Part shown: one piece after another, positions 11,423 to 48,100 of the stretch
How positions within the stretch are numbered: the stretch's first letter is position 1
How the letters are laid out: every line of letters begins with the position of its first letter
From: Alcanivorax sp. DSM 26293
Lineage (GTDB): Bacteria > Pseudomonadota > Gammaproteobacteria > Pseudomonadales > Alcanivoracaceae
Assembly (NCBI RefSeq): GCF_900107995.1
Contig: NZ_FNUM01000001.1
Coordinates: 1-64,000, forward strand
Direction of reading: 5' to 3'
Length of the DNA stretch: 64,000 bases
Notes under the pieces: generated by a model
Databases searched by the model: none
What the model saw: only the letters and a program-made list of their open reading frames with translations
What the model was told of the DNA's origin: nothing
Translations under genes and position numbers: made by a program

Positions 11423-11457
11423 GTCTTTCCGCCACGTCATACACAGGAGTTTTGATC

Positions 11458-13164
11458 ATGGATGTAGCCAGCGCCACCGCTACCGCTCCGGAAGCCGCCT
11501 CCGAACCGGACCTGCACCCGCAGGTTCGCATCGGCCAATACAGCGATCCGGGGCCCAAGTTGCATAACCAGGATGCCCTGGCCATGCAGATTCCCGAGGG
11601 CCCACTGTTACGTACCAAGGGTATTGTGGCCGCCCTGGCCGATGGCCTGTCCAGTGCCGGTGCCGCCCGGGAGGCGGCGGAGTCCTGCGTACTGGGATTC
11701 ATCAATGATTACTACGCAACGCCAGCGCTGTGGAGTGTGCCACGCTCTGCACAGCGGGTGCTGGAAGCGCTCAATCGCTGGCTCTGCCGTCAGACACTGG
11801 CCGGCGAGAGCCACCTTTGCACCCTGTCATTGCTGATTCTTCGCTCACGCACGGCGCATCTGTTTCAGGTGGGGGATTCCCGCATCTGGCGGCTGCGTAA
11901 TGAGCGACTGGAATGCCTGACCCGGGACCACAGCCGTATCATCGGTGACAACCGTCAGGTGCTTACGCGGGTGATGGGCGGCGATACCCGCCTGGATGTG
12001 GACTACAGCAGCAGCGACTTGCAGGTGGGCGATGTGTTCCTGCTCACCAGTGATGGGGTCCACGGTTTTCTGTCCCGTTCCCGCATGCAGGGCATCGTCC
12101 GCGCCAGTGGCCAGCCGGAGGTGGCCGCCCGCAGCCTGGTGGAAGCGGCCCTGGCCAGTGGCAGTGATGACAACCTGAGCTGTCAGGTACTGCAGGTGGA
12201 TGGCCTGCCGGACGCCAGCGCCGACGAAGCCCTGCGCCAGCGCGGCAGCCTGCCGTTGCCGCCCCCGTTAAGCCCGGGTATTCGCCTGGACGGTTTCACC
12301 GTGAAGCGGGAGCTTTACGCCAGTGTGCGCAGCCATCTGTATCTGGTGGAGGATGACAGTGGCAAACCCTCGGTACTGAAGACGCCATCAGTGAACCTGG
12401 AAGATGACCGGGATGCGCTGGAGCGCTTTGTCATGGAAGGCTGGGTGGGTCAGCGACTGCGCAATGCCCACCTGCTGCACACCCTGCCGCTGCCGGACAA
12501 CCCCAGCTGCCTGTATCAGCATCTTGAGTTCATTGACGGCGTCACCCTGCAACAGTGGCTGAAGGAACATCCGGATGTGGCCGTGGAAGAAAAACTGTAT
12601 CTGGCGGACCAGTTACTCAACGGGGTCCGCGCCCTGCACCGGGCCGATGTGATCCATGGCGACCTGAAGCCGGACAACATCATGGTGGATACCCGCGGGT
12701 TGGTTCGCATCGTGGATTTCGGGAGTTGCCATTGCCGTGGCATGGAGCAACACAATGCCGGCATTCCCCTTGGCACCCGGGATTACAGCGCCCCGGAACT
12801 GCTGGATGGCGTCGCCCCCAGCGAACAGAGCGATCTGTTTTCCGTGGCGGTGATCATTCATGAAATGCTCACCGGATCGCTGCCCTGGCAGGGCCGCTAC
12901 GAAAAGTCCGCCCATCGACCCCTTCCGCCCCTGCAGGGCCACAACGCCTTCGTGCCGCTGTGGATCAACAACGTGCTGCAGATCGCCCTGCAACACCAAC
13001 CCAAACAACGCTTCACCGATGCCGCCGAATTCCGCGATGCCCTGCGCCGCCCGGTACGCAGCCGCAAACCGGTCATCGACAACGACATCCGGCAACAGCG
13101 CATCTGGAAAGGAATCAGTATTGTGCTTATGGTGTTGTTGCTGATTAGTGTGGCGGCGAAATAA
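11458..13164 (+). CDS. PP2C phosphatase-Ser/Thr kinase fusion with C-terminal membrane anchor
   Basis: A 568-residue bifunctional signalling protein. Residues of about 20-260 form a PP2C domain (ALADGLSSAG, FQVGDSRIWRL, LLTSDGVHGF, GSDDNLSCQV). Residues of about 280-530 form a Hanks-type kinase (VLKTPS Lys, VIHGDLKPDNIMVD catalytic loop, VDFGS metal loop, GTRDYSAPELL). A single C-terminal helix (GISIVLMVLLLISVAAK) anchors it in the inner membrane. AGGAG at 11445-11449 selects the ATG at 11458 over a TTG two codons earlier. It follows narK by 35 bp in the same operon, as in Pseudomonas nitrate loci, so it may tune nitrate uptake or reduction; the target is unknown. Its TAA is the first bases of a heptamer-repeat arm. 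Confidence 0.9.
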   Translation: MDVASATATAPEAASEPDLHPQVRIGQYSDPGPKLHNQDALAMQIPEGPLLRTKGIVAALADGLSSAGAAREAAESCVLGFINDYYATPALWSVPRSAQRVLEALNRWLCRQTLAGESHLCTLSLLILRSRTAHLFQVGDSRIWRLRNERLECLTRDHSRIIGDNRQVLTRVMGGDTRLDVDYSSSDLQVGDVFLLTSDGVHGFLSRSRMQGIVRASGQPEVAARSLVEAALASGSDDNLSCQVLQVDGLPDASADEALRQRGSLPLPPPLSPGIRLDGFTVKRELYASVRSHLYLVEDDSGKPSVLKTPSVNLEDDRDALERFVMEGWVGQRLRNAHLLHTLPLPDNPSCLYQHLEFIDGVTLQQWLKEHPDVAVEEKLYLADQLLNGVRALHRADVIHGDLKPDNIMVDTRGLVRIVDFGSCHCRGMEQHNAGIPLGTRDYSAPELLDGVAPSEQSDLFSVAVIIHEMLTGSLPWQGRYEKSAHRPLPPLQGHNAFVPLWINNVLQIALQHQPKQRFTDAAEFRDALRRPVRSRKPVIDNDIRQQRIWKGISIVLMVLLLISVAAK

Positions 13165-13189
13165 TTAATAATGAATAGTTAATAGCTGC
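13163..13189. repeat. Left heptamer-repeat arm bracketing the accessory cluster
   Basis: 27 bp built of units such as TTAATAA, TGAATAG, TTAATAG and ending CTGC. 25 of 27 bases match the reverse complement of the arm at 23735-23769. It begins inside the kinase stop codon. The following 120 bp (13190-13309) contain nothing recognisable. Confidence 0.65.
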
Positions 13190-13309: not shown

Positions 13310-13912
13310 TTATATTCTTTCTCCTTTACTGCTAATGTATGAATTTATGCATAAATAAAACTCATTTAGCACATCTTGAACCTCACTATTCTTTATATAA
13401 GTACCTTCAAAATAAGAAAAAACATAGCCTGAAACAGACTTAACAATTAGATTCGGCCCCAAACAAGATAACCTTGAAAAATCCTCAAGCACATTTACTG
13501 CCTCTTCCTCACTCAACCCTTTGAAAACAAGATCGGGAAAACCCCTAAAGCTTTGATAACTTCTTTGCTCCCATTTTGTCTCAAAAACCCTCTTCCTTCT
13601 AACCTCAAAATCATCATCCCAGTCTGGGCAGAAAAAATATAGAACAGTGACCTGAGACACCCCCGAATATCTCCCAACTCCTTTAAAAACCCATATATCA
13701 GAAACCCCATAAACACCTTCATCGGCAACTCTCTCAAAGGCTCCACCAGACCGCCACCCTTTAATAGAGATATTATCAACAGAAAACATAGCCCCCCTTT
13801 TTTTTGAGAAACCCATCCCCCTTATCAATTCTCCTCGTTTTTTGCATCTAATTAACGAGAAAAAAACATAGCCGGCTACAACCACCACAGTTAAAAAAAC
13901 AACAACAATCAT
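13310..13912 (-). CDS. Small AT-rich membrane-anchored protein, candidate immunity protein
   Basis: A 200-residue protein with an N-terminal membrane helix (MIVVVFLTVVVVAGYVFF) followed by a basic stretch (RCKKRGELIRG) and a soluble domain rich in aromatic residues. No family recognised. Base composition is far lower in G+C than its surroundings (17 of 60 bases at 13321-13380 versus 36 of 60 at 12001-12060), a sign of recent acquisition. Its ATG overlaps the stop of the transglutaminase-fold gene (ATGA), and that gene's AT-rich hydrophobic tail lies immediately upstream. A small, AT-rich gene coupled to a variable C-terminus is the usual position of an immunity gene, so I suggest that role; the sequence itself does not prove it. 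Confidence 0.65.
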   Translation of the reverse strand: MIVVVFLTVVVVAGYVFFSLIRCKKRGELIRGMGFSKKRGAMFSVDNISIKGWRSGGAFERVADEGVYGVSDIWVFKGVGRYSGVSQVTVLYFFCPDWDDDFEVRRKRVFETKWEQRSYQSFRGFPDLVFKGLSEEEAVNVLEDFSRLSCLGPNLIVKSVSGYVFSYFEGTYIKNSEVQDVLNEFYLCINSYISSKGERI

Positions 13913-16900
13913 GGATTCCGACCTTTAACACAGAGGGCATCTATAACAAGGTTAACAAACGCATTTACGATAACGCCAATCAATACAGCAAAAAGTAAAC
14001 CAACCAAAGTAACCGCAAGCAAAGAAGCTAAAGCGAACAATGCCACTTGAACCACAGAATACAAGAAAACAAAAGCAAGGAAACCTGGAACCCCCATGCA
14101 TTTATCGAAAAGCGACACCAAACCAAACGCAAACCCTAATACACCTGCCGCACCACCTAAGTATTTACCAATCAACTTCCCAAGATCACCAACCAAATCA
14201 AGAAAATCGAGGGCATCAATGATTGTTGCTATATGATCGAGGAATTCGACTATCAGTTCTGCACCATTTTCTCCGCCGCCGATCAAATACCCTCCAGCGC
14301 CAGTCTGAGGATCAATCACTATATATCCTGTAGATTGACGTCCAGAGAAGTTAACTGGCCTCTCGTGCGCAGTCACTTCTTTACCCGCATACACCGAATT
14401 CCGAATATCGCTCTTTATTTCACTGGATAGCTGCAACTTAGGAAGAGCAACGGACAGGTTATCCTGTGTAATAGTCCAGATCTTTTGCCCCTCGGCCGCC
14501 GCAAGCTGAACCGCTTTAACCGCACTAATACCATAAGCCGGCACATCTTCGGTGCTATACATCTGCTCAGGCACTAAGTGCTCCATAGCTGACATTCTCG
14601 TGCCTTGAGCACGGTTGAAGCTAACCCAGCGCTGATGATGGTTATCCTTATCAACACGAGTGCTTGTCATGTGGTCCACATCCATGGTCAGGCCTTCCGC
14701 CTTCACATCTCTCGGGACACCAAACCAGTACTGCGGTGTCAGGCTGGTTTTGAACAAACCGTAACTCGGGGCGCGGTAGCCTATGCTGTTGGCTTGCTTC
14801 TGGGCGATCTGGTCCTGCACGTCGCTCAGGGCGAAGTAACTCAGAATGGTGCTATACAGCAGGTCACCTACCACTTGCTGCTTGGTCAAGCCGGTAAAAT
14901 CCTCTGATTCCAGTTTTTGCTGGGTGGATTCCAGATCGGTTTGTAGGGCTTGTGCCTGATGCTGGCTGATGCCTTGTAGATTCAGAGCCAAGGCACGATA
15001 TTCACCCGCTATCGGCTGATTACGTGTGGTACGCCAGCCTCGGCCCGGTTGCCAATAGCCCATTTCCGAGAGCAGTTCTTCGCCCATCGCCATATTGCTG
15101 ACTGCCGTGGCCGCTATGTCGTCGCCTATGGCGAATTCGCCGGTCAGCGCAATCAGGTAACCCGGCAATGTATCCGGTATGTCATTGGGATCGATTTCAC
15201 CGTTTTCATCCGGCTCAGGCAGATAGCTGGCCAGAGTCTCCTCATCGTCCGGGGTGGCCGGTTCGAAGGACAGGGACAGCTTCTTGCCGGCAAGGGCCAC
15301 GGTGGGCTGCTCGATTTTCAATAGCTGGGTGCCTGGCGTCCCATACAGACTGGTGTGGAGTTGATACTGGAATTTCCAGCGCAGGTTGTCCGGTAATTCG
15401 GGTGCGACCAGCTTACGGGTCAGCAATTCATAAGGCAGAGTGGTTGCCAGTTGCTCGTGGATGATCTCCTTGATGCTGTGCGTGCCCAGCACGTCGCCCA
15501 CGGAGGCATCCGGGGCCTGGCTTTCCAGATAACTTTCCAGTTGGGCGCGATAGTCGGTCAGGGACTCTTCCATGGCCTGTTGTGGCACACCCTGCACCCA
15601 GCCTTCCTCTTCGTTGATGGTGCTTTGGTCCTGGATAGTCTGCGCCAGGCCTTCCGCATCGAAGAGCACCTGTTCTTCCAAGGCCATCCCCTCGCTGTAT
15701 TCATACTGCTTGAAGCTCGCATCCATGGGCACCCAGCTATCACCCACCCGGTGTACCGCGCCCCGGCTGGGTTGGTAGTCGATCCAGGCCTCTACCCAGA
15801 CATGCTCCAGCTTCGTATGGGTGACCTTGCCCCCGGAGACCATTCCAATGTTGGGAATGCCCCCTTGGCCCAAGAGGTTCCCCGCCGCTTCCGGGGTACT
15901 CACGTTGCCCACCCAGTTCATCACCTTGTCGGCGGGCATTTGTACGGTACCAAAGGCGTAACGGGCCGGGATGTTGGCGGCGCGCAATAGGGCGATAAGC
16001 AGGCTTGCCGTGTCGAAAGCGTTGCCCTTGCCATGTTGCAAGGTGTATTCCGCCCCCTGGATGGAGCCGTAACTGGGGATGAACTCGATGTTATTGCGTA
16101 CCCACTGGTAGATTTTTACCGGATCATCGTCCAGCTCTTCGGCTTTTGCGCTGATGGCTTCGGAAAGGGGGGCATCGAGCGTTGCAGCCAGGTCATCTTC
16201 GGTGGGGCCGCCGGGATTGCCCAGCATATCGGGGGTGATGACATTACTGGCCAGTTGCACTCCCTGCTCAAAAAGAGGAAACCCACTGCGGGCGCTCAGC
16301 TCGTCGGCGCTGTCCGCCGGTTTTGGCGTTTGGCTCGGGTCCGGGGTGCTCCAGGGTAGGTTATTGGGATCGAAGGGATCACGGGGCTTGCTGAGTGTGA
16401 AGCTGTCCATCCATTTTTTCAGGGAAGCTGCTGCTTCCTGTTGTTCACTGAGGCTTTCCGCGTCGAGCAGGGCTGACAGGCGCGCCTGCATGGCTTCGTA
16501 GCGGCTCTGGTATTCCGCCTTTGCCTGCTCATTGCGCTGGCGAACCCGGGCAGGCAGGTTCTTGTTTTTCAGTCTCTGCTCGGTTTTCTGGAATGCCTTG
16601 AGCGCTTTCTGATGCAGCTTGTCGGCACGCTTGGCCAGCCAGGCCAGATCACTGGTTTCTTCCAGCGTTAGTTGGCTTAGACCAATGGCCGTCAGCACAT
16701 TATCCAGTGTGCCCCCTTCTTCCGCCAGGCGACGGTCAATTAGCGCTTTACGGTCGCGGGTCTTGTCGCGCACATGCTTGAGTACTTGGTGCAAGTGCTG
16801 GTTCTTGGCCTCCCATTGTGCCTGGCGATGCTGCTCTTTCTGCCGCTCGGTTTCGATGGCCAGGGCCCAGGAAGGCCAGATTACCGCATTGAGGAAGAGC

Positions 16901-17043
16901 GCCAGAATGCTGATGGCAACGGTTCGGAAGAAGCGGCGTGATTCCCGCAATACTTCGATGGCCGGGGCCTCTTCCAAAGGTTGGCGCTCTACTGTTTCAT
17001 GAAGCAGACGTTTACCGTAATCCTGATCTGTACTCGTTGTCAT
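13909..17043 (-). CDS. Membrane-associated transglutaminase-fold protein lacking the catalytic Cys, with variable hydrophobic tail
   Basis: 1044 residues. Order: cytoplasmic N-terminus (1-40), hydrophobic helix or late signal sequence (41-62), charged coiled-coil-like region (63-215), Pro-rich linker (216-245), transglutaminase-like domain (about 305-445), and a long middle region. A conserved-looking module follows (GQKIWTITQDNL ... GYIVIDPQTGAGGYLIGGG), and then a strongly hydrophobic tail (930-1044) with two or three possible membrane helices. In the transglutaminase fold, His414 (HVWVEAW) and Asp441 (VPMDASF) are present. The position of the nucleophilic Cys is Ala342 (GNAFDTASLL), so catalysis is unlikely. 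From memory, proteins with this layout often sit beside RHS proteins. The tail is AT-rich compared with the rest. The gene starts 12 bp after the preceding gene, with GGGGGAAGAG before the ATG. Confidence 0.85.
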   Translation of the reverse strand: MTTSTDQDYGKRLLHETVERQPLEEAPAIEVLRESRRFFRTVAISILALFLNAVIWPSWALAIETERQKEQHRQAQWEAKNQHLHQVLKHVRDKTRDRKALIDRRLAEEGGTLDNVLTAIGLSQLTLEETSDLAWLAKRADKLHQKALKAFQKTEQRLKNKNLPARVRQRNEQAKAEYQSRYEAMQARLSALLDAESLSEQQEAAASLKKWMDSFTLSKPRDPFDPNNLPWSTPDPSQTPKPADSADELSARSGFPLFEQGVQLASNVITPDMLGNPGGPTEDDLAATLDAPLSEAISAKAEELDDDPVKIYQWVRNNIEFIPSYGSIQGAEYTLQHGKGNAFDTASLLIALLRAANIPARYAFGTVQMPADKVMNWVGNVSTPEAAGNLLGQGGIPNIGMVSGGKVTHTKLEHVWVEAWIDYQPSRGAVHRVGDSWVPMDASFKQYEYSEGMALEEQVLFDAEGLAQTIQDQSTINEEEGWVQGVPQQAMEESLTDYRAQLESYLESQAPDASVGDVLGTHSIKEIIHEQLATTLPYELLTRKLVAPELPDNLRWKFQYQLHTSLYGTPGTQLLKIEQPTVALAGKKLSLSFEPATPDDEETLASYLPEPDENGEIDPNDIPDTLPGYLIALTGEFAIGDDIAATAVSNMAMGEELLSEMGYWQPGRGWRTTRNQPIAGEYRALALNLQGISQHQAQALQTDLESTQQKLESEDFTGLTKQQVVGDLLYSTILSYFALSDVQDQIAQKQANSIGYRAPSYGLFKTSLTPQYWFGVPRDVKAEGLTMDVDHMTSTRVDKDNHHQRWVSFNRAQGTRMSAMEHLVPEQMYSTEDVPAYGISAVKAVQLAAAEGQKIWTITQDNLSVALPKLQLSSEIKSDIRNSVYAGKEVTAHERPVNFSGRQSTGYIVIDPQTGAGGYLIGGGENGAELIVEFLDHIATIIDALDFLDLVGDLGKLIGKYLGGAAGVLGFAFGLVSLFDKCMGVPGFLAFVFLYSVVQVALFALASLLAVTLVGLLFAVLIGVIVNAFVNLVIDALCVKGRNP

Positions 17044-17055
17044 TGCTCTTCCCCC

Positions 17056-20000
17056 TTACTGCCCCAATACGTCCAGAGTGGTCCCCACAGGGCCGTATTC
17101 CACCAAGCCTTGATCTGTGCCCACGTCGATTTTCCCCTGCAATCTGATTTCCCCGGGCTGGTCCGGCAGCCTGATCCAGAATTGCCATTGCTGCTCCTGG
17201 CCTGCCTCGATATGGAAGGGCCAAAGAAGGCTGCCATCATCCGCCAGGCGGCCTGTACCCGCGTCAACTGCCTCGGTGCCAGACGGCAAGATCAAATTCA
17301 CCTGACCCGCCACAGGTAGACCCAGGTTGGTCAGCGTTAAGCTCAGCGGGATCACCTTTCCTGCCACGGGAGACAGCGCTTGCGGGTGGATATGATCGAG
17401 AGCATGGGTAATCAGACTTGCCTGGGTACTTTCAAGCCCCGCGACAGAGGCTTCCGCCAGGACATCGAACCCCATGTAGACGCCCCGCCCCTGCCCATAG
17501 GCATAGTCGGTGGCGGATACGCCCCCTGACGGCAAATAATGCGCCAGCGCGTTGGCACCATTCAGTTGTACGCGCAGCGGTTTACCGTGGAGAGCCAGAG
17601 AAAAGCTGTCCTCTCCGGCATGGATGGGCGAATCACCCAGAGCGATCCCCCGAACTTTGGGTAGCTTGCCACGGGCGCTGATACCCAAGGCTGATTCCAG
17701 CCGGCCATTACGCTTGTCGTGATACCCGGCATAGAGCAGTCCGGCGCCATCAGCTACGGCATCGACCAGCTCATGTTGTGTACTTTCCGGTATTTTGACC
17801 GCTTCATGGAACAAGCCATAAACGGTATAACCACCGGTCTCGAACTCGCGAACGAAGTCGTCCGCCGTGCTGACCAAGGTATAGGACCAACCAGCCTCTT
17901 CCAGCAATTGCTGCAAGAAGCGACGCTGAGACAAGGCGGTGGGTGCGCCATCCGGGCCGTAGGGTTCAGCGCTATCCGTCGCCAGTACCTGATCGATGAC
18001 ATAGCTTTCCTGTTGCAACCCGGGATACAGCGACTGGCAGTCTGGCGTCAGCAGCCCACTGTCATGCAAAACGGGATTACCATTCTGCCAATGGGTTGCC
18101 ACAACCCGGACAGGAGACGACAGCTCTGCCTGGTTGACTGGGGCCAACGTGAAGGCCACATGGCTGGCACCGCTTCGCAGTATCGACACATCGACCTTGG
18201 TGCCGGGGTTGTTGTTAAGCACACCAGACTCTTGGCCAATCGATACCGTTTCAGTATCAAGCAGGTCGCCGCCGGCGGAATAGACTTCTAGTAGCACCTG
18301 ATCTTGAGGAAGCAGCACGACATCAGGCTGGAAATGCAGATCCAACTGACCTACCCCCTGACAAGAGCCTGCTTCCGCCCCATCGACCAGGGCCAACAGG
18401 CGCCCCCTACCCTCAAGGGAAAAGGCTGCTGGCAGCTTGTCGGCGATGGAGAAGGTACGAGTGGCCAGGATTCGCTCATTACCCCCCACATGTGTTGTCA
18501 GGACAGCTGCATAGGTAGCACCGATGGGGGCCAGGGCAAACCATGACTGACTACTTGCGGCACTCCCCTCAACAGGAAGCTCATCAATGCTGCTTGGCCA
18601 CTGGGCGACTACTTTTTCTGTTTCAGGATCGACAATGGAGAGGGTTACCGGAACATCCGACATGTCCGCGTTGCCCTCATTACTCACTGTCGTATTGATA
18701 GTCAGGTACTCGGATCGAAACACCGGATCCGCATTGATCTGGATATCACCCTGCAACCCTGCGCCATCCATCGCCGTTGAGAGGACTTCGAAGCCGGTTC
18801 CCGCTTCTGCCAGCAGGCTTCCCGGCTGATCACGCACCTCCAGGGTCAGGGTATAGTCACCTGGGCTGACGCCATCCAGCTCAATACGGTATTCAATATC
18901 ATGGAATCCCTGCGGACCGATTTGCGGCAGGTCTGCTTCCTGCTCCCAAACCTTTTCGCCGTCTGGCGCATACAACGCGGTGTGAGCCAGGGCGCCATTT
19001 AACTGTGCATTCAATGCCGGATTACTAATGCGGTCCTGGACTGTCACTGTTTCCCCCGGGAAGTAACCGGGCTTATCGGTATGGATGCTGGCTGCGGTTT
19101 GCGCCTGATCCGCAGAGACGATCTCGAATGGACTAGCCGCTTCATCAATCTGCAAACCGTTCTGATCAAACAGAGCGATGTGGGCCACATATTCACCGAC
19201 ATAAGCAGACCCTGTGTTCCAGGTAACTGGAGAAAGGGTTTTATGCTCTCCGTCAGACAAATAGATATCACTGAAATAGCGGACATCATTAACCAGATTT
19301 CCCGCAGCATCATGGATGGAAATCTGTGCATCTACCACTGAATCGAAACTGCTCAGACTGGTTACCGTCGAGCCTATTTCGACAAGCTGATTCGATGAAT
19401 AAGCAAACCGATCGGTAGTGATAGATTGTTTGTAGGCAGATGCCAATACCTTAGCGAATTGCGGCTCCAGGTCTCGACGAACTCGGTTGCCGTTTATATC
19501 TTCATAGGTAAGCACAATAGATTGGGTTACCAGCCGATCCTCTCCCGGTATGGGATTACGAAGCAGCACGCCGAAATCCAGGGCAGCCTGCTCCCCAGTA
19601 CCAAAGGTAGGGAAATCCCACTCCACCCGGATTCCATTCTCTTCACTTTCAATGCGGTCAGGCGGCACCTGGAAGCTACCCGAATTTATCTCAATGTCGG
19701 TTTTCCCCAGCAGCGCCGACACGGTTACATCGCGGATTTCTGCCTCGATAACCTTCACTTTAACGGGGTGAGGTAGCGCTGCCCTGCCACGATCATCAAT
19801 GGCAGTGAAGGTAATGATATGTTCTCCCAGCTGGGCCACTGATGGGGTCCAATTCAGTGCAGCCGTTGCCGGATTTCCCGGCGTTGACGTCAAGGTTGCC
19901 CCTGCAGGCAACCCCACATGGTCCAGAGACACGACATCTGACGTATCCGGATCCGTTGCTCTCAGATCTAATGAAAAGGGTCTATTGGCTGGCGCCAGAA

Positions 20001-20889
20001 TAGTGGTATTTGCTGGTGGAGTAGGCGGAATAGTGAATTGAGGTGCCGCGTTATCGGCAAAATCTTGTACCTGAATCAGGAAATCGATGGCGGTTGAGCT
20101 TTTGGCCTGGCCATCGCTACCAATATCTTCCATTTTCACTTGTAGTGCATACATGCCCAAAGCAGCGCTGGACGGGATTTCCCACCGAACAATCCCCGTT
20201 TCAGAATCAATCTGGATTGGGAATGAGCTCCCCCCTGGCAGTGCCCCAATCAAAGACTCCGAACTCGGAGAGAAACTCCAGCGAAGAGGATCCCCTTCAT
20301 CGCGTGCAGGAACGGAGAATGTGCAAACGTCTCCACGTGGGCAAGTCACAATCGGAGGAAGATTGCTGGAAGGAGGGGTATTCGGCTCTGACAGATCCAC
20401 TGACGCACGCACCAGGAAACTACTTGCCGGGTTACGCAATCCACCAATCCTGCAACACCCACTCGCACTCATGATCCATGGCTGACCATTTGTGTTAACC
20501 GATGCCGGATAGGTTTTTCGAATTGCACTATCGCCCGTCTGGGTTGATTTGCTTACGGCAACCACCCAGTCCTGGGCTGCACTGTAGGCGACAACCTCGA
20601 AATATATCGTTCCTAAAGAGGTTCCATCACCAAAATTCAGGCGCGCACCAGGCCGAATAATGTCTCCTATTTGGGGACGACCATCTTGGGCACTTCCCCA
20701 AAAATAGCTGCGCCGCCATGCGGTAGTGAATGAAATATCAATCGTATTTTCCGCTATATCAGGCCTTGGCTCCCAAGTCAGATGACCGAAGCGGAAATGA
20801 GAGGCCTCCACTCCACGCATCAATATCAGTAGGATTAAACCCACCATAATTCTTACCATGGTTTTAAAAGCGATATTATTCTGTTTCAT
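17056..20889 (-). CDS. Large secreted Ig-like protein with a C-terminal GATase-like domain
   Basis: 1277 residues with a signal peptide (1-29, MVGLILLILMRGVEA). Mature domains: an N-terminal module starting SHFRFGHLTW and containing SGCCRIGGLRN (30-168); two putative Ig/cadherin-like domains (about 178-275 and 280-385); a series of beta-sandwich repeats of the CARDB/NEW3 kind, for example TDRFAYSSNQLVEIG and TDKPGYFPGETVTV. A domain resembling glutamine-amidotransferase-like/ThuA folds follows (around 1000-1170; GGYTVYGLFHEAVKIP, GAGLLYAGYHDKRNG), then a final beta-sandwich. Predicted to be exported to the periplasm or surface. The start overlaps the previous stop as ATGA. Function unknown; the domain mix suggests a structural or adhesive component. 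Confidence 0.85.
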   Translation of the reverse strand: MKQNNIAFKTMVRIMVGLILLILMRGVEASHFRFGHLTWEPRPDIAENTIDISFTTAWRRSYFWGSAQDGRPQIGDIIRPGARLNFGDGTSLGTIYFEVVAYSAAQDWVVAVSKSTQTGDSAIRKTYPASVNTNGQPWIMSASGCCRIGGLRNPASSFLVRASVDLSEPNTPPSSNLPPIVTCPRGDVCTFSVPARDEGDPLRWSFSPSSESLIGALPGGSSFPIQIDSETGIVRWEIPSSAALGMYALQVKMEDIGSDGQAKSSTAIDFLIQVQDFADNAAPQFTIPPTPPANTTILAPANRPFSLDLRATDPDTSDVVSLDHVGLPAGATLTSTPGNPATAALNWTPSVAQLGEHIITFTAIDDRGRAALPHPVKVKVIEAEIRDVTVSALLGKTDIEINSGSFQVPPDRIESEENGIRVEWDFPTFGTGEQAALDFGVLLRNPIPGEDRLVTQSIVLTYEDINGNRVRRDLEPQFAKVLASAYKQSITTDRFAYSSNQLVEIGSTVTSLSSFDSVVDAQISIHDAAGNLVNDVRYFSDIYLSDGEHKTLSPVTWNTGSAYVGEYVAHIALFDQNGLQIDEAASPFEIVSADQAQTAASIHTDKPGYFPGETVTVQDRISNPALNAQLNGALAHTALYAPDGEKVWEQEADLPQIGPQGFHDIEYRIELDGVSPGDYTLTLEVRDQPGSLLAEAGTGFEVLSTAMDGAGLQGDIQINADPVFRSEYLTINTTVSNEGNADMSDVPVTLSIVDPETEKVVAQWPSSIDELPVEGSAASSQSWFALAPIGATYAAVLTTHVGGNERILATRTFSIADKLPAAFSLEGRGRLLALVDGAEAGSCQGVGQLDLHFQPDVVLLPQDQVLLEVYSAGGDLLDTETVSIGQESGVLNNNPGTKVDVSILRSGASHVAFTLAPVNQAELSSPVRVVATHWQNGNPVLHDSGLLTPDCQSLYPGLQQESYVIDQVLATDSAEPYGPDGAPTALSQRRFLQQLLEEAGWSYTLVSTADDFVREFETGGYTVYGLFHEAVKIPESTQHELVDAVADGAGLLYAGYHDKRNGRLESALGISARGKLPKVRGIALGDSPIHAGEDSFSLALHGKPLRVQLNGANALAHYLPSGGVSATDYAYGQGRGVYMGFDVLAEASVAGLESTQASLITHALDHIHPQALSPVAGKVIPLSLTLTNLGLPVAGQVNLILPSGTEAVDAGTGRLADDGSLLWPFHIEAGQEQQWQFWIRLPDQPGEIRLQGKIDVGTDQGLVEYGPVGTTLDVLGQ

Positions 20890-23597
20890 TGCGCCTCTCC
20901 CCTAAGACGAACTTCGACACCCAGATTTGCATCGCCCTCCGGCACAACGACTGAGGGAGACAACCCCTGCTCAATCTCAAGACGAGTACCTGGTGCAACA
21001 TAAAAAGGCGCCCCCTGGACAGCTTTTGGCTGCACACTTCCACCTACCTGCACGTGGATGGCGTGTTCTCCAGGGTGCTCAAATGTCAAAGGCACAGCAT
21101 CTAAAACGACACGTTTTTGAGGCTGACCAGGTTCAAGATCAAGAGCCCACTGGCCATTTTGAATAACATTCCCATCAGGAGAGACAAGTTGAAAATCTCC
21201 TGACAAAGAGGATGCCATATTGGAGTAATGCAAAGCCTGTACAGAAAAAGCGACATCTTCTGTGGCACCTTGAGTGGTGTATGCAGGCTCTGGCTTGATG
21301 ATCAGAAGTTCAACGTTTTGCGTTGCCACTACCGAAATCGTTACCTCATGTTCTGCCAACACCGCCCCTTCAGAGGCATCTACGGCTTGAACCACGATGC
21401 GATATTCCCCAGGCGGGAATGCATCGGTATTCCAATTGGCGGGCACAATTTCTTGCTGACCAGGCTCCAGTGTAATGAACGCTTCTGTATCACCATGATG
21501 GTGATGGCTATGACCATAATGTCCCTCTTCCAGATCAACAGCGGGATACTGTTCAAACAAATCACCATTACTACCAAAAACATTGACATAAAGGCGTACT
21601 GTCCTTGGTCTATCTCCCTGATTTCTCAATGTACTTTCAAGAAGTACAGCGTTATAAGCCTGATATTGATTCCTGTCCGTGGTCAGCGCTTCAAATCCAA
21701 CCCCTTCAACTGATGCTTTTTGCAGGGGAATATCCAGATTGATGTTACCCGGCTCCTGTATCGTCAAATTCATGGCTGCGGATAGGTAACCAGAAAAAGA
21801 AGCGCGGATATCAAACTCGGTCACACTGATTCCTTCCAGCCTATAAGCGCCCTCAGCATCGCTAACTGCCTCAACTCCAGCAGCACTAACTTTAGCACCG
21901 GATAACGGAGCACCAGACTCACTGTCCTTTACCTTTCCAGAAATCGTCGTCGTTGCACTCTGTTTTCGAAGAGCAACAACGCCCAAATCGTTACCTCCTA
22001 CTGCCGGAATAAAACCGATCACCGTAGTTTCGTAGCCGGACATAGATAATTGAACTTGAGTTTCTTCCACTTCCAGACCTTCAAGCATGAAGGAACCATT
22101 GCTTGAACTTTTTACACTAAGCCCTTTTTCCTCCACTTCTACAGATACGTTTTCCAACCCCTTACCGGTATCAGAATCAACAGCCTTGCCCTGAACAGAA
22201 ACATCCTGTGGAGGAGGATTTCCTTTCAGATAAAGCACGGGAGAGAAATTAAGGTGGCTTCCAGCCACAACAGAAGCGGTAGCAGTGACCGTCACATAGC
22301 CCTCCGAGCTGACCGCTAATTGAATGTCGCCTGGTAAGGAAGATAGAGCGTACAGGCCATTTTCATCCGAAACGGTCTGCCCGGTTGAAGCCCCGGCCAA
22401 AGAGACCTGCGCTCCAGGAATTGGGAGCCCCCGCGTATCCCTGATCACTCCGCTAATGAGTCCGCTATCGGGTAGCGGGCTCATTTCAATAGTCCCTACA
22501 CTCAGATGCTGGCCTGCCCCAACGCGTCCACTCTGACTCACCCCCTGAAACCCACTGGCTTGATAGGACAGGGAGTAATCATCCGGCTCCATATCGGTCA
22601 GCCGGAAACGGCCATCTTGGCCACTTTTTGCGCTATAACTACTACCACCCTGAGCAGTGACTACTACGTTTTCTATGGGCTGGCGAGTATTGCTGTCGAT
22701 GACCTGCCCCTCAATGTTTCCAGCACTGGGGTCAACGGGTTCTGGAGCGGTGGAAACTTGATAAAGGGCGCGCAACGCCAGAGCTGTAGCAAACACATCA
22801 CCGCCCCAGCTGCCATTCTCTGTCTGACCGACCTTCAGGTTTTCCAAGCCCGCTTGGTAGCGAGTGCTGTCGGTAATGACAGGAATAAGAGCCTGCAATG
22901 CCAATGCCGTCTCCACGATGCTTCCCCAGCCATCACTACTCTGATTAGCGAGAAGATATTCACTAGCGGCAGATATCGAGGCCCCGACAGGATATCGGAA
23001 CCGGTAACGCTGCAAAGCCCGGCTGGTTATAGCCGTTACGTAAGTGCTAGTAAAATTAGGAGTTTCAGACCAGCCGCCATCTGCTTGCTGGTTTGAAAGA
23101 AGAAAAGTGATAGCTCGATCAAGCTTGTCAGGCGACACAGAATCTCCTGACGCCCATGCATTAAGCGCTAAGGCAGTATTCAGCACACTCCCATCATGAC
23201 CCGGATAGCCTCCAACACCGCCGTTATAGGCGATTCGTTCTGACACAATGCCAGAATCGATAGTATCCGTTAGCCCGAATTGCTCAGCCAGAAGATCCAT
23301 TCTGGAATGGAATTCAGAGTGGGAAGAGAGATCAGGCTGCAACAAGAAGCCTACTCCCGAGTCACGCTGTGTATCGGATAGGCTTTCCAAGTCGCCTAAT
23401 GCCAATAGTGACTCAATCGTTGCCTGGTATTCAGTCGAACTCGTCTGATCTGTATAGAAGGCGCCATCCTGGCGTTGCTGCTGCTTTAGCCACTCGACTC
23501 CTGAAGGAGTGCTTGCCCAAGCTCCAGAAATAAAGAGAAGGCAGAAAGACAGAAAAAGATAGTAAATACTTCCTAATGAAGCGCCCCGCATCCCCAT
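20886..23597 (-). CDS. Secreted alpha/alpha-toroid and carboxypeptidase-regulatory-repeat protein
   Basis: 903 residues with a signal peptide (IYYLFLSFCLLFISGAWAS). Residues 30-285 carry repeats of the prenyltransferase/squalene-cyclase type (WLKQQQRQDGAF, LLSNQQADGGWSE, NLKVGQTENGSWGG), likely a toroid used for binding, not catalysis, since no acidic DxDD motif is seen. Four carboxypeptidase-regulatory-like beta domains follow (about 293-375, 378-457, 465-545, 550-628; each with GxV.D...xPxxxxxV and SDxxGxY/F-type strands). The C-terminal 270 residues are Ig-like and include a histidine cluster (GHYGHSHHHHGD, 692-702). First gene of the four-gene cluster; the promoter should lie in 23598-23730. 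Confidence 0.85.
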   Translation of the reverse strand: MGMRGASLGSIYYLFLSFCLLFISGAWASTPSGVEWLKQQQRQDGAFYTDQTSSTEYQATIESLLALGDLESLSDTQRDSGVGFLLQPDLSSHSEFHSRMDLLAEQFGLTDTIDSGIVSERIAYNGGVGGYPGHDGSVLNTALALNAWASGDSVSPDKLDRAITFLLSNQQADGGWSETPNFTSTYVTAITSRALQRYRFRYPVGASISAASEYLLANQSSDGWGSIVETALALQALIPVITDSTRYQAGLENLKVGQTENGSWGGDVFATALALRALYQVSTAPEPVDPSAGNIEGQVIDSNTRQPIENVVVTAQGGSSYSAKSGQDGRFRLTDMEPDDYSLSYQASGFQGVSQSGRVGAGQHLSVGTIEMSPLPDSGLISGVIRDTRGLPIPGAQVSLAGASTGQTVSDENGLYALSSLPGDIQLAVSSEGYVTVTATASVVAGSHLNFSPVLYLKGNPPPQDVSVQGKAVDSDTGKGLENVSVEVEEKGLSVKSSSNGSFMLEGLEVEETQVQLSMSGYETTVIGFIPAVGGNDLGVVALRKQSATTTISGKVKDSESGAPLSGAKVSAAGVEAVSDAEGAYRLEGISVTEFDIRASFSGYLSAAMNLTIQEPGNINLDIPLQKASVEGVGFEALTTDRNQYQAYNAVLLESTLRNQGDRPRTVRLYVNVFGSNGDLFEQYPAVDLEEGHYGHSHHHHGDTEAFITLEPGQQEIVPANWNTDAFPPGEYRIVVQAVDASEGAVLAEHEVTISVVATQNVELLIIKPEPAYTTQGATEDVAFSVQALHYSNMASSLSGDFQLVSPDGNVIQNGQWALDLEPGQPQKRVVLDAVPLTFEHPGEHAIHVQVGGSVQPKAVQGAPFYVAPGTRLEIEQGLSPSVVVPEGDANLGVEVRLRGEAQ

Positions 23598-23734: not shown

Positions 23735-23769
23735 GCAGCTATTAATTATTCATTATTAACTATTAATTA
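23735..23769. repeat. Right heptamer-repeat arm bracketing the accessory cluster
   Basis: 35 bp, read on the minus strand as 7-bp units TAATTAA, TAGTTAA, TAATGAA and so on, ending CTGC. It is the inverted partner of 13163-13189. The stop codon of the DUF1285 gene (23769-23767) is its outermost TAA. The rest of the gap 23598-23734 shows no gene. Confidence 0.65.
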
Positions 23770-26270: not shown

Positions 26271-27113
26271 ATGAGTCGACAACTGGCCTTCTACCAATGG
26301 ATCTGCCGTCGCCTGCAACGGGACGAGCCGTTCAGTGGCCAGCCCAGTGCCGACCTGGACAGCCTGCGTACGGTGATCAAACCCTGTGACGTTCTCCTGG
26401 TAGCCGGCCACAGCAACGTTGACCGTACCTTCAAGGTCATCGGTGACAGCCGTTTTGCCCGGGCGGTGCTTTACATCGGTCGGCTTCATGACGTGGCAGA
26501 CCCGGCCTTGCGCGCGCTGCTGGCGGACTACACCCCCTGCGAACCGGATACCCAGCTGGTGATTGATGCGCGGCTGGAACGGGGGCTGATCGTGGAACCG
26601 CTGTCTGCCCTGGAAGGCCGGCAGATCCGCGTCTGCCGGGCCCAGGGACTCAGTGACAATGAGGCACAGGACGTATTGCGCTATGCGATCAGCCGGATCG
26701 GCGCCGGTGGCAGCCAGTCCTGGGCGGCATTGGCACTGTTGACCCTGATGCCGTGGCGATGGCTGCCGCTGCGTTGGCGCCTCAATATCTTCCGGCGCTG
26801 GGCCGGAGAGCTGGTGCGGGCCCTGACTGGCACCGTGGTCGCCGATGCGTTCAGCTTTGTGCAATTCCCGGTGCTGCCGCTGGTCAAGGAAGATCGCGCC
26901 GGCAGCCGCCTGCTGCGGCTTCAGCCCCGGGCCATCACCGCCGCCGATTTCGACCACTCCCCCTACTTCGAGATCATCAAGGCCCCCTTCCAGTTAACGG
27001 AAATTCCCAGGGGAATGGATGCCGTGCCCTGGAAAGGCAACCAGGGCGCGCTGGCGCCGGAGCGCCAGCGGCACCTGTCATTGGTAGAACCGACGACCGG
27101 CAACCAGGGCTAG
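26271..27113 (+). CDS. YiiX/YebB-like NlpC/P60-superfamily protein, degenerate active site
   Basis: 280 residues. The segments IKPCDVLLVAGHSNVDRTFK and FARAVLYIG resemble the start of YiiX/LRAT-type permuted papain-like hydrolases, and TVVADAFSFVQFPVLPL resembles their C-terminal helix. The catalytic His expected before the LYIG strand and the Cys expected before the AF helix are not present in this reading, so an enzymatic role is doubtful. The assignment is by resemblance and is tentative. The 3' end overlaps the convergent protease gene by 36 bp. Confidence 0.6.
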   Translation: MSRQLAFYQWICRRLQRDEPFSGQPSADLDSLRTVIKPCDVLLVAGHSNVDRTFKVIGDSRFARAVLYIGRLHDVADPALRALLADYTPCEPDTQLVIDARLERGLIVEPLSALEGRQIRVCRAQGLSDNEAQDVLRYAISRIGAGGSQSWAALALLTLMPWRWLPLRWRLNIFRRWAGELVRALTGTVVADAFSFVQFPVLPLVKEDRAGSRLLRLQPRAITAADFDHSPYFEIIKAPFQLTEIPRGMDAVPWKGNQGALAPERQRHLSLVEPTTGNQG

Positions 27114-28706
27114 CCCCAGCAGCGCCAGCAACGACAGGCTGCCGCCGCCGCCACCGCCACTGTCCGGCGCCGTGCTGGGCGCCGTGCTTGCACTGCGGGC
27201 TTGCGCCGGGCGGGTATAGGCCTTGCTATCGCCGGTGGGAAAATCCCCGTTATCGGTCCACACCTGCACAGTCATGGCATCATAGCCCTGGCCCGACAGC
27301 ACCAGTTGCTGCGCCGCGGACTGGCCCGCAGACAAATCCCCCAGTCCGCACTGAACCGTGCGGCTGCCGCTGCAGTTTTCCGGCAACTGCACGGTCTGCC
27401 AACCACTGGGTAATGCAAAACTCACTCTTACCCGGGCAGCACTCTCATGGGTCGCCGCATTGCGAACCTGGGCACTGACGCGCACATGGCCGTCGCTACC
27501 CCGGTTGGAGGTCAGGCCAAGCACCACATTGGGCTCGTTGCTGAAGACCAGATTGAACGCTTCACTACGCAGGCTGAAGTAATCGTAGGCATCACTGATC
27601 GGACTTACCCGTACCTGATCGGCCCAGCGGCTGGAGGCCTTCAGGGTCATGGCATAGCTGCCGCTGCTCTGCCCCAATGCCAGGAACAGGCTGTTGCGGC
27701 AATCGGTATACCCCGTGTAGGTGCGACAGGACAGGCCCGGCACCGATACGGACAGCCCGGGCTTGTGCTCGATACGCAGGCCCACATTGCGTGCATCCGT
27801 GCGCGTACTGGTGTTGGCAATGCGCGGGTACAGGGTCACCGAACTGCCCGTGTTGCGGTACTGATCACCGTTGAGGCCCTCGGCCTGCAGGTCCACCAGC
27901 CCACCGGAGGTGGTTTCCTCCAGCCAGGGCAAGTAGCGGTCGACACGGGTATAGACCGCGGGCACACCATTGGTGGCACAGGTTTCATGACCATAGCTGG
28001 TGACGCCCACCAACCATTGCTGGTCTTCGTTGTGATAAACCAGCGGGCCGCCGCTGTCACCCCGACAGGAATCCTGTTTCTGGCCCTTTGGGTTCATCTC
28101 ACCGGCGCAGATCTGATTATTGGTCAAGCTACTCCACTGGCTGGCGCAATAGTCCTGCGGCACGAAGTCCAGATCCGCCTTTTGCAGGGTGTCGGTCAGG
28201 GCATAGCCATCCGGCGTGGTGGAGCCCCAGCCCAGCACCTCCAGAACCTCATCGTGGCTGCCTGCGGCAAGCCCGGTAACGATATGGGGCTTGGCCATAT
28301 CCAGCGGTGCAAACCGGCTAGGAGACGCCAACTGGAGCAAGGCCAGATCATTATGGAACTGGGCAGCATTGTAGGCCGGATGCAGCTGCAGATCGGTAAC
28401 CGCCAGCCGCTCGGGGGTTGCAGCTGTGTTGCGGTTCACGCTGCCCAGGGAAACAAACAGCATGTTTGCCTGCACGTTATCCACACAATGAGCTGCGGTC
28501 AGCACCCAGCGGGGGGCAATCAGGGTGCCGCCACACAGTGTCGACGTGTAAGCGGGATTGCCGGACCGGCTGATTTCCACCTCGGCCATCCACGGCCGCA
28601 CCTGTGTGACATCCTGTCCCCCGACCACCCGGGGCTGGGCATCCAACGCCGATACCGTCTGAACCAGACCTGCCCCCAGCAACAAGGAGGCCATCAAACG
28701 ATACAT
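27078..28706 (-). CDS. Secreted trypsin-like serine protease with GlyGly-CTERM anchor
   Basis: 542 residues. Signal peptide MYRLMASLLLGAGLVQTVSA, then an S1 protease domain starting RVVGGQDV with the full triad: TAAHC (His), NDLALLQL (Asp), GDSGGP (Ser). A roughly 250-residue beta-rich region follows. The end is a GlyGly-CTERM sorting tail: SGGGGGGSLS, a hydrophobic helix (LLALLGLALVAG) and the basic RRFYQ. Such proteins are processed by rhombosortase and exported by type II secretion in other Gammaproteobacteria (family knowledge); no rhombosortase gene is in the window. Convergent 36-bp overlap with the preceding gene. Confidence 0.92.
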   Translation of the reverse strand: MYRLMASLLLGAGLVQTVSALDAQPRVVGGQDVTQVRPWMAEVEISRSGNPAYTSTLCGGTLIAPRWVLTAAHCVDNVQANMLFVSLGSVNRNTAATPERLAVTDLQLHPAYNAAQFHNDLALLQLASPSRFAPLDMAKPHIVTGLAAGSHDEVLEVLGWGSTTPDGYALTDTLQKADLDFVPQDYCASQWSSLTNNQICAGEMNPKGQKQDSCRGDSGGPLVYHNEDQQWLVGVTSYGHETCATNGVPAVYTRVDRYLPWLEETTSGGLVDLQAEGLNGDQYRNTGSSVTLYPRIANTSTRTDARNVGLRIEHKPGLSVSVPGLSCRTYTGYTDCRNSLFLALGQSSGSYAMTLKASSRWADQVRVSPISDAYDYFSLRSEAFNLVFSNEPNVVLGLTSNRGSDGHVRVSAQVRNAATHESAARVRVSFALPSGWQTVQLPENCSGSRTVQCGLGDLSAGQSAAQQLVLSGQGYDAMTVQVWTDNGDFPTGDSKAYTRPAQARSASTAPSTAPDSGGGGGGSLSLLALLGLALVAGRRFYQ

Positions 28707-45191: not shown

Positions 45192-48100
45192 ATGAAACGT
45201 ATGCTTATTAACGCCACTCACCCTGAAGAGGTTCGGGTGGCACTGGTCGACGGCCAACGGCTGTATGACCTGGATATCGAACACAGAACCCGCGAACAGA
45301 AAAAGGCCAATATCTACAAAGGCAAGATCACCCGGGTAGAACCCTCCCTGGAAGCCGCCTTCGTGGACTTCGGCGCTGAACGCCACGGTTTTCTCCCTCT
45401 CAAGGAAATCTCCCGCCAGTACTTCCAGAAAGACCCGAAAGATATCCAGGGTCGCATCAACATCAAGGAAGTCATCAAGGAAGGCCAGGAAGTCATTATC
45501 CAGGTGGCCAAGGAAGAGCGCGGCAATAAAGGCGCCGCCCTTACCACCTTCATCAGCCTGGCCGGCCGCTATCTGGTACTGATGCCCAACAACCCCCGGG
45601 CCGGCGGTATTTCCCGTCGCATTGAGGGTGAGGAACGCCAGCAGCTCAAGGAAGCCCTGGGCGCGCTGACCATCCCCGATGAAATGGGGGTCATTGTTCG
45701 CACCGCAGGGCTGGGCCGTAGCGCCGAAGAACTGCAGTGGGACCTGAACTACCTGCTGAAGCTGTGGAATTCCATTGATGATGCCTCCCGGGAACGCAAG
45801 GCGCCCTTCCTGATCTACCAGGAATCCAACGTCATCATCCGCGCCATTCGCGATTATCTGCGCAAGGACATTGGCGAAGTCCTGATCGACTCCAAAAAAG
45901 TCTACGACGAGGCCCAGGGCTTCGTGCAGCAGGTCATGCAGGACTTCCAGCACAAGATCAAGCTGTACAGCGATGAGACCCCGCTCTTTTCCCGCTTCCA
46001 GATCGAATCCCAGATCGAGACCGCCTTCGAGCGTGAAGTGAAACTGCCGTCCGGTGGTTCCATTGTCATCGATCCCACCGAAGCGCTGGTATCCATCGAT
46101 ATCAACTCCTCCCGGGCCACCAAGGGCGCGGACATCGAGGAAACCGCCCTGAACACCAACCTGGAAGCGGCGGATGAAATCGCCCGCCAGTTGCGCCTGC
46201 GTGATATCGGCGGCCTGATCGTGGTGGACTTCATCGACATGGGGCCGGCACGCAACCAGCGGGATGTGGAAAACCGCATGCGCGATGCCCTTGAGGCTGA
46301 CCGGGCCCGTATCCAGCTGGGTCGCATCTCGCGCTTTGGCCTGCTTGAGCTGTCCCGACAGCGGCTGCGGCCGAGCCTGGGTGAAACCTCCAGCATTGTC
46401 TGCCCGCGCTGTAACGGACAGGGCCATATCCGTGACGTGAAATCCCTGGCGCTGAGCATCCTTCGCCTGATCGAAGAAGAGGTCATGAAGGAGCGCACCG
46501 GCGAGATCCAGGCCCAGGTACCGGTGGCCGTGGCCACCTACCTGTTGAACGAAAAGCGCGAACCCCTGCGCGCCATTGAAGATGCACATAACGTTCGTGT
46601 GGTCATCATCCCCAACCAGAATCTGGAAACCCCGCATTTCGAGGTGGAACGGATTCGCGATGACCAGACCACCGCCCAGCCAAGCCATGAGATGGAGCTG
46701 CTGGAAGGAAACAAGGATGCGGATATCGCTTCCGCCCAGGATACGGAAATCAAGACCCAGGAGCCGGCGGTCAAACTGATGGCGCCGGATACCGCCCCGC
46801 CAGCGCCGAAGCCGGCTCCGGCACCGGCGGCTACCGCAAAAGAAAATCTGGGTATCCTGGCCCGCTTCTTCACCTGGCTGGCGCAGATCTTTACCAGCGA
46901 GCCCAAGCCGGCCAAGGTCAAGAAACCCCAGCCCCAGGGCAAGGGTAACCCGCGCCAGCAACACTCCCGCGGCGGTCGCGGCGGCAACAATCGCAACCGT
47001 AACGACAACCGAAACAAGCAGGATGCTGGCAAGAGCGGTGGCAAGGGTGGCGACAGTGATAATCGCAATCCGCGCAACAAACGCCAGAACGACAAGGACG
47101 GGGGCAATCGCAAGAACGATAACCGCCAGTCGGACAACCGTTCCGCAGACCGCTCCGGCGACAACAAGGACGACAATCGCAACGAACGTCGCGGCCGTAA
47201 CGACAACCGTCGTAACCGCAACGACAACCGTGGCGGCGACAACCGTAACGACGGTCGTAACAATGAAGGCCGCAATGACCACAAGGGCGACAAGAGCGAC
47301 GGCGGTAACAAGCCACGCAACAAGAAGCCCCAGCAGCAGGACAACACCGAAGGCAGCAGTGACAGCAAGGGGCCCAAGGCACCCCGTCGCAACGATGCCA
47401 AGGATGACCGTCCCCTGCGCGAACGCCAGCGTCCTGCAAAAACTGCAGCCAGTGGCGACAAGCCTGCTGGCGAGCAGAAGCCCCAGCAGGCTCAGCCGGC
47501 CCGCAACGTGAAGCAGGGCGACAAGCCGCAACCGACCCGCTCCCCTGCCCCGGCAGCGGAGCAGGACGATGAAGGCCATCCGCCGGCGAAGCTGGTTCCG
47601 GCACAGGAACCCACTGCCAGTGCGCAGCCTCAGGCAGCCAGCAAGGTGGAGAAAACGGAGAAAGCCGAAAGTGAACGCGCGGCCAAGCCGGCACAGCCTC
47701 AGGAAACGGCCAAAACCGAAAAGGTAGAGACAGACGCCGAGGCACAACCCGCTGAGCAAGCTGCCACCCCGGCTCCGGTTGCGGAAAAGCCGCAAGCAGA
47801 CACCCAGCCCAAGCAGCCGGTAAACGCCGAGCCGCCAGTGAAGGCTGAAGCGAAACCGCACGCTGAAGCGCCCGAGAAACCGGCCGAAAAACCGGTAGCG
47901 CCCGCGCCTGCTGCGGAGAAACCTGCCCAGGAAGCGGAAGCGTCCCAGGCCGAAACGCCGAAAGCGGCCGCGCCCAACGCTGAGCAGCCCGCCGCTGCAC
48001 CGCAACCGGCTGCTGCCAAAGCCCCTGAGCAAGCTGCGCCACAAGCCCAGGACACGGCCAAAGCAGAAACGCCTGACCAGGCGCCCGCTGCAGAGGCCCC

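Follow-up and report, generated by a model that had tools for sequence, protein, structure and literature searches.

According to excerpts from Zhang et al. 2012 (PMC3482391), the inactive-transglutaminase RHS toxins possess an N-terminal signal peptide or transmembrane segment, a dead transglutaminase and a variable C-terminal toxin; RHS repeats invariably come after the inactive-transglutaminase domain, and Ig-type domains are found as occasional neighbours. The terms “alpha-macroglobulin” and “carboxypeptidase regulatory” are absent from the text of that paper, as far as excerpted. Judged by title and the start of the abstract, the open-access literature on transglutaminase, RHS or polymorphic toxins together with partner domains offers nothing closer to the locus discussed here, and that on Alcanivorax and polymorphic toxins offers nothing on this locus type. 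The closest functional likeness is with ionophoric toxins of contact-dependent inhibition (CDI), for which the excerpted text of Halvorsen et al. 2024 (PMC11630599) describes highly variable hydrophobic C-terminal toxins beside membrane immunity proteins that are likewise polymorphic, VENN as the short motif at the toxin boundary, and CdiB/CdiA as carrier and export route. Another related case is Tse5, an Rhs pore-forming effector with a polymorphic C-terminal membrane toxin, assigned in the part of the source used (PMC10684867) to a type VI secretion system.

The present locus lies in the window, i.e., the whole stretch of 64,000 nucleotides of Alcanivorax sp. DSM 26293 that was analysed, and consists of four minus-strand genes, whose coupling by 4-bp overlaps (20886-20889 and 13909-13912) and one 12-bp gap, pointed out in an earlier note on this DNA, is confirmed by the ORFs (Table 1). 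As judged from sequence, it is very probably a polymorphic toxin-immunity locus, composed of a carrier (gene 3) with predicted Sec export and a predicted membrane toxin tail, a predicted cognate immunity protein (gene 4) and two putative partners (genes 1 and 2). This reading draws on features that the sequences show directly, namely a fixed junction, cassette exchange, co-variation of tail and downstream gene, orphan modules and known toxin domains in the corresponding slot of relatives. The earlier note had proposed an apparatus of an undescribed kind; instead, the locus fits the polymorphic toxin-immunity pattern and the inactive-transglutaminase class, as excerpted from Zhang et al. 2012 (PMC3482391), so that of the interpretation as a whole, co-occurrence of the genes and the pattern of variation stand, and the undescribed apparatus does not.

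Like the inactive-transglutaminase RHS toxins, gene 3 combines an N-terminal export signal, a transglutaminase that has lost its catalytic residue and a variable tail, but an RHS array after the transglutaminase is lacking. With the CDI toxins, as described in the excerpts, the variable hydrophobic tail beside a variable, putative membrane immunity protein and the short boundary motif (GGENG in gene 3 carriers) are shared, whereas the carrier and the predicted export route differ; the likeness of the tail to the five-helix CDI ionophores would be one of function. The tail, as predicted, also resembles that of Tse5 in the part of its description used; gene 3, however, has a Sec-type signal and no RHS.

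Table 1. Coordinates of the four-gene locus, its domains and its borders in the window
Feature	Position	Strand	Description
Gene 1	20886..23597	-	903 aa, predicted secreted; alpha/alpha-toroid and carboxypeptidase-regulatory repeats; putative partner protein
Toroid-type domain of gene 1	22743..23525	-	residues ~25-285; weak SQHop_cyclase, Prenyltrans and TED matches (Pfam) and iterative HMM
Carboxypeptidase-regulatory-like repeats of gene 1	21708..22718	-	four stretches; Pfam
Gene 2	17056..20889	-	1277 aa, predicted secreted Ig/macroglobulin-like protein
ThuA/GATase-like domain of gene 2	17380..18411	-	residues ~827-1170; model residues 230-573
Gene 3	13909..17043	-	1044 aa, polymorphic-toxin carrier with predicted export and a variable tail
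Long Sec-type signal peptide of gene 3	16858..17043	-	residues 1 to ~62; export and cleavage predicted
Inactive transglutaminase domain of gene 3	15718..16164	-	residues 294-442; Cys column is Ala342
Conserved Gly-rich junction motif of gene 3, GYIVIDPQTGAGGYLIGGGENG	14254..14325	-	residues ~907-930
Variable toxin tail of gene 3 (predicted)	13912..14265	-	residues 927-1044, hydrophobic, ~118 residues, GC 0.417
Gene 4	13310..13912	-	predicted cognate immunity protein; soluble domain and a single hydrophobic segment at the N-terminus; GC 0.376
30-bp AT-rich inverted repeat, first arm	13160..13189	+	downstream island edge
30-bp AT-rich inverted repeat, other arm	23735..23764	-	upstream island edge

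Gene 3 is recognised in Pfam by Transglut_core only, with no match to an RHS family; the domain has the fold of the transglutaminase-like superfamily, and one weak transglutaminase match for the carrier was obtained in the PDB by sequence. The transglutaminase Cys is replaced in all 55 aligned carriers (Ala in 49, Asp in three, Ser in two, Pro in one). The AlphaFold model is mostly confident up to residue ~931; past this point, the tail is modelled as helical with pLDDT mostly under 50. Gene 3 has no cysteines apart from residues 982 and 1038, which both lie within the tail. As for export, GspD of the type II secretion system (T2SS) scored over the cut-off in all seven genomes checked and gives no discrimination, because it does so with or without the locus (G001 and G004 have no gene 3 match).

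The boundary between carrier and tail is sharp at the level of both DNA and protein. Two genus relatives, G006 and G013, match the window with 92% DNA identity over 25200-14264 and with 91% over 18792-14263 (as well as 90% over 24962-22071), respectively; in both, the match then ceases until about 13154/13171, where it restarts past gene 4 inside the neighbouring gene (presumably encoding a phosphatase-kinase). The two breaks are no more than one base apart (14263/14264) and lie inside the Gly-Glu-Asn-Gly codons that belong to the junction motif. For the 54 other carriers, mean identity to the window drops from 0.55 (residues 901-930) to 0.10 (residues 931-960). Where two carriers are at least 80% identical in the core (13 pairs), the tails lack detectable similarity in ten pairs and are similar in three (BLAST E <= 0.01); L049 and L050, for instance, are 96% identical as carriers and unrelated by BLAST in their tails. 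GC content steps down from 0.565 in the carrier (0.59 in the window) to that of the tail and, further, to that of gene 4 (Table 1). What is found is, hence, a conserved carrier with abrupt C-terminal variability at a fixed junction, as in polymorphic toxins, and the homology break, the drop in identity and the ten divergent pairs bear out the earlier prediction that variation would be concentrated in gene 4 and the tail of gene 3. Since alignments of gene 3 over its whole length to G006 and G013 extend across the tails, these may be remote kin of the window tail.

The tail set comprises matches that reach residue 915 with a frame closed at the 3' end and a length below 1600 aa (which drops L041), with four duplicate loci omitted; its 77 tails are that of the window and 76 of the 78 listed (L043 and the 36-aa tail of L098 were dropped, and the 2-aa tail of L066 had been excluded earlier). 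Carrier set A4 contains 50 of 55 members (L101, the second L092, L095, L094 and L115 were dropped), and set A6 the window plus 29 of 31. The window tail had no family match in the domain search. In 293 order genomes, it gave, besides the window itself, three matches at E ~4e-4, all of which we put down to probable chance similarity between hydrophobic stretches; one of them, L177, looks like a multi-spanning carbon-starvation-type transporter.

Gene 4 has no match in Pfam. A match to it occurs in just two of 57 relatives and, with the second at E 9.5e-4, in two of 369 class genomes; both counts include the genome of the window. Although the carriers of the window and L049 (Alcanivorax sp. UBA4485) are just 62% identical, their tails share 55% identity and gene 4 is homologous to the L049 next gene (E 1.7e-9); the tails and next genes of the window's closest carriers, G006 and G013, show no such similarity to those of the window. 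Pairwise comparison of the 74 tails that have a next gene gave seven pairs similar in both, 25 in the tail only, with next genes that lack detectable similarity, four in the next gene only and 2665 in neither; as the pairs are not independent, the Fisher p of 5e-12 can serve as an indication only. The ORF of greatest length between -60 and +200 bp was taken as the next gene (>1000 aa excluded), so that some are misassigned; at least one of the four “next only” pairs (L098-L115) joins toroid genes. The 69 next genes retained are that of the window and 68 of the 71 listed, L064, L106 and L094 being omitted because their ORFs are doubtful. An adjacent downstream gene that varies with the toxin domain, as observed here, is typical of polymorphic toxins and predicts an immunity function for gene 4.

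Both halves of the variable unit also occur in isolation. Orphan relatives of gene 4 are present in G018 and L101 and, via the L049 gene, in L071, where two frames are involved; G006 carries, behind its own next gene, a two-piece relative of the G013 next gene with 94-95% identity. In G003 and G018, truncated C-terminal modules stand ahead of small genes, several of which are hydrophobic; orphan C-terminal modules are found in several named loci as well. Such standalone cassettes and orphan immunity genes, another trait of polymorphic toxins, are thus seen in relatives; the window holds none.

In relatives, the variable slot accommodates known toxin and pretoxin domains, none of which is matched by the window tail: the 77 tails contain NLPC_P60 (six), DUF6310 (two) and PT-HINT (one), and the 69 next genes PD40 propellers (three), DUF3592 (three), DUF5953, MORN_2 and DUF2283 (one each). 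Hydrophobic tails of 85-145 aa account for 59 out of 80. A Cys in the last 12 residues with another one 38-72 residues before it, spacing limits that were picked after inspection of the data, is present in 28 of 55 non-redundant tails, compared to a mean of 4.2 and a maximum of 11 in 1000 shuffles. Because the slot holds peptidoglycan hydrolases and hydrophobic tails alike, targets in the cell envelope are suggested. From co-variation, orphans and slot contents together, gene 4 is likely the antidote and the tail likely a membrane-active toxin; its reading as a pore or ionophore is drawn from hydrophobicity and company, given that a family match is lacking and the helix model is of low confidence. 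In L083 (10852-11841), a carrier tail with the pretoxin HINT domain precedes a 69-aa gene, which is probably the single DUF2283 match.

RHS repeats are present in related transglutaminase proteins (L041, L044 and L045; genomes G056, G029 and G052), and L041 lies beside a toroid gene, in agreement with the earlier remark that such domain mixes occur near RHS proteins. Among the full-length carriers listed, RHS-like motifs occur only in L041, the loci having been fetched with an RHS-less profile and proteins of at least 1600 aa omitted from the tail count. In L093 (14061-20153), the carrier junction of an orphan cassette is continued by an RHS array with 18 RHS_repeat stretches. Tse5 has an enclosing RHS shell.

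Genes 1 and 2 resemble alpha-2-macroglobulin/complement-like proteins in that a toroid (with a weak TED match) is combined with MG2 and Ig-like domains. However, in Foldseek with the gene 2 model, the C3/C4/A2M chains that rank first have low TM-scores, gene 2 possesses a ThuA-like domain, and only Ig-like arrays are shared. The Pfam content of gene 2 is SIBA-E_N, putative Ig, MG2 and weak CARDB; PDB sequence searches yielded one match for gene 1 and one, at E 0.08, for gene 2. From the VIA-align rows, those for transglutaminase and ThuA-like domains were used, and others, e.g., FAT domains, were set aside. The NCBIfam names S-layer, SusC and squalene cyclase were rejected for gene 1 at scores far below the cut-offs, and a defence-system reading was dismissed with zero PADLOC matches for all four proteins.

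Of the 39 loci that extend at least 7 kb upstream, 33 have the toroid partner close to the carrier (30 before the allowed overlap was widened, since annotated carrier starts overlap the partner by >100 bp). In the other six, no toroid partner is visible, and two of these, L060 and L082, show a gene 2-like match. The predicted synteny across genera, hence, holds in that the large genes are mostly together, and fails as a strict rule. Parts of genes 1 and 2 are fused in 17 of the 24 loci where both are seen. Stretch 18793-22070 of the window (gene 1 end and gene 2 start) has no DNA-level match to G013 (L031), with ~90% identity on both sides, and a mosaic exchange inside the partner genes is possible.

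The island occupies this site in three of 17 genus genomes (window, G006, G013). The flanking genes adjoin each other in the other 14 (~0.7 kb apart in G008, less elsewhere); in G003, the site is empty and the locus is found on other contigs. The gene at 11452-13164, which presumably encodes a PP2C phosphatase-kinase fusion and lies beside a nitrate transporter-like gene, is present in 17/17 genus genomes with 74-100% identity. The arms of the 30-bp inverted repeat bracketing the island are 93% complementary; its role as a transposition border is doubtful, because similar repeats are present in several empty genus sites, and it may simply be intergenic. In the class, the carrier profile matches 19 of the 274 genomes drawn, the window's own included, with frames of 1019-1168 aa alongside eight long ones of 1514-2578 aa (G294 twice, G224, G127, G184, G175, G150, G256); in viral contigs, 48 pattern stretches contained no relatives. 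Elsewhere in the window, one 2-kb step (46001-48000) has an AT skew of 0.388, far above the remainder, and 27078-28706 presumably encodes a secreted trypsin-like protease whose Gly-rich C-terminal anchor resembles GlyGly-CTERM.

Different explanations of this pattern are conceivable. In a polymorphic toxin, the tail could bind or block a membrane protein or serve as a membrane entry device, with no pore being formed, which we consider unlikely, albeit not negligible: a hydrophobic tail, modelled as helices and matching no family, would be compatible with it, and CDI ionophore entry domains use membrane-protein receptors according to the excerpts from PMC11630599, but a tail of 118 residues, hydrophobic for the most part, can hardly house an additional entry or enzyme domain. 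Translational coupling, together with the frequent vicinity of toroid/Ig partner and carrier (33/39 loci) and the fusion of gene 1 and gene 2 parts (17/24), would also suit a structural or adhesive surface complex with all four proteins as permanent subunits; a gene 4 that changes with the tail and is matched in only 2/57 relatives and 2/369 class genomes is, however, hard to reconcile with a fixed subunit, which renders this explanation very improbable.

It is barely credible that the tail is a mere membrane anchor of a surface-displayed carrier, gene 4 an accessory membrane protein and their variation neutral drift. While a hydrophobic C-terminal tail on an exported protein, with a small membrane protein encoded next, is what an anchor would look like, identity stops abruptly instead of fading, at points no more than one base apart in the two comparisons, and 96%-identical carriers bear tails without detectable similarity. 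Further points against an anchor are the NlpC/P60 and HINT domains in the same slot, the orphan immunity-like genes and the GC step.

For the polymorphic toxin-immunity locus that we favour, the following course of events is proposed. Gene 3 would be a carrier exported by Sec, made up of a helical neck, the inactive transglutaminase and a mixed alpha/beta region; past the fixed Gly-rich junction, it would present a C-terminal tail that can be exchanged. The present tail would insert into the inner membrane of a competitor and cause leak or depolarisation, and Cys982 and Cys1038 may form a disulfide after export; the gene 4 product would sit in the membrane of the producer as the cognate immunity protein. 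Genes 1 and 2 may supply exported partners, probably holding, presenting or releasing the carrier at the cell surface. Tail and immunity gene would be swapped together via recombination at the junction, for which the cassettes and immunity genes that lie as orphans downstream in relatives may serve as a store.

Relative to what is excerpted from Zhang et al. 2012 (PMC3482391), an RHS-less inactive-transglutaminase class with partner genes is an undescribed variation on a known theme. Whether this extends to a separate RHS-free polymorphic toxin class in several phyla, as judged by record titles, is a close call that leans slightly to the negative. In such a class, the dead-transglutaminase carrier and a dedicated toroid/macroglobulin-like/ThuA-like surface partner would form a presentation machine; its cargo would mostly be hyper-diverse, undescribed short membrane-depolarising toxins, many with a Cys pair, and RHS shells would be one more pluggable cassette at the same junction.

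The published rule that inactive-transglutaminase toxins always carry RHS repeats now needs qualifying, and the junction provides a means of recognising such carriers. Tens of candidate toxin-immunity pairs without a family name are thereby supplied. With two named partner genes, the delivery of Sec-exported polymorphic toxins becomes open to gene deletion in a marine bacterium.
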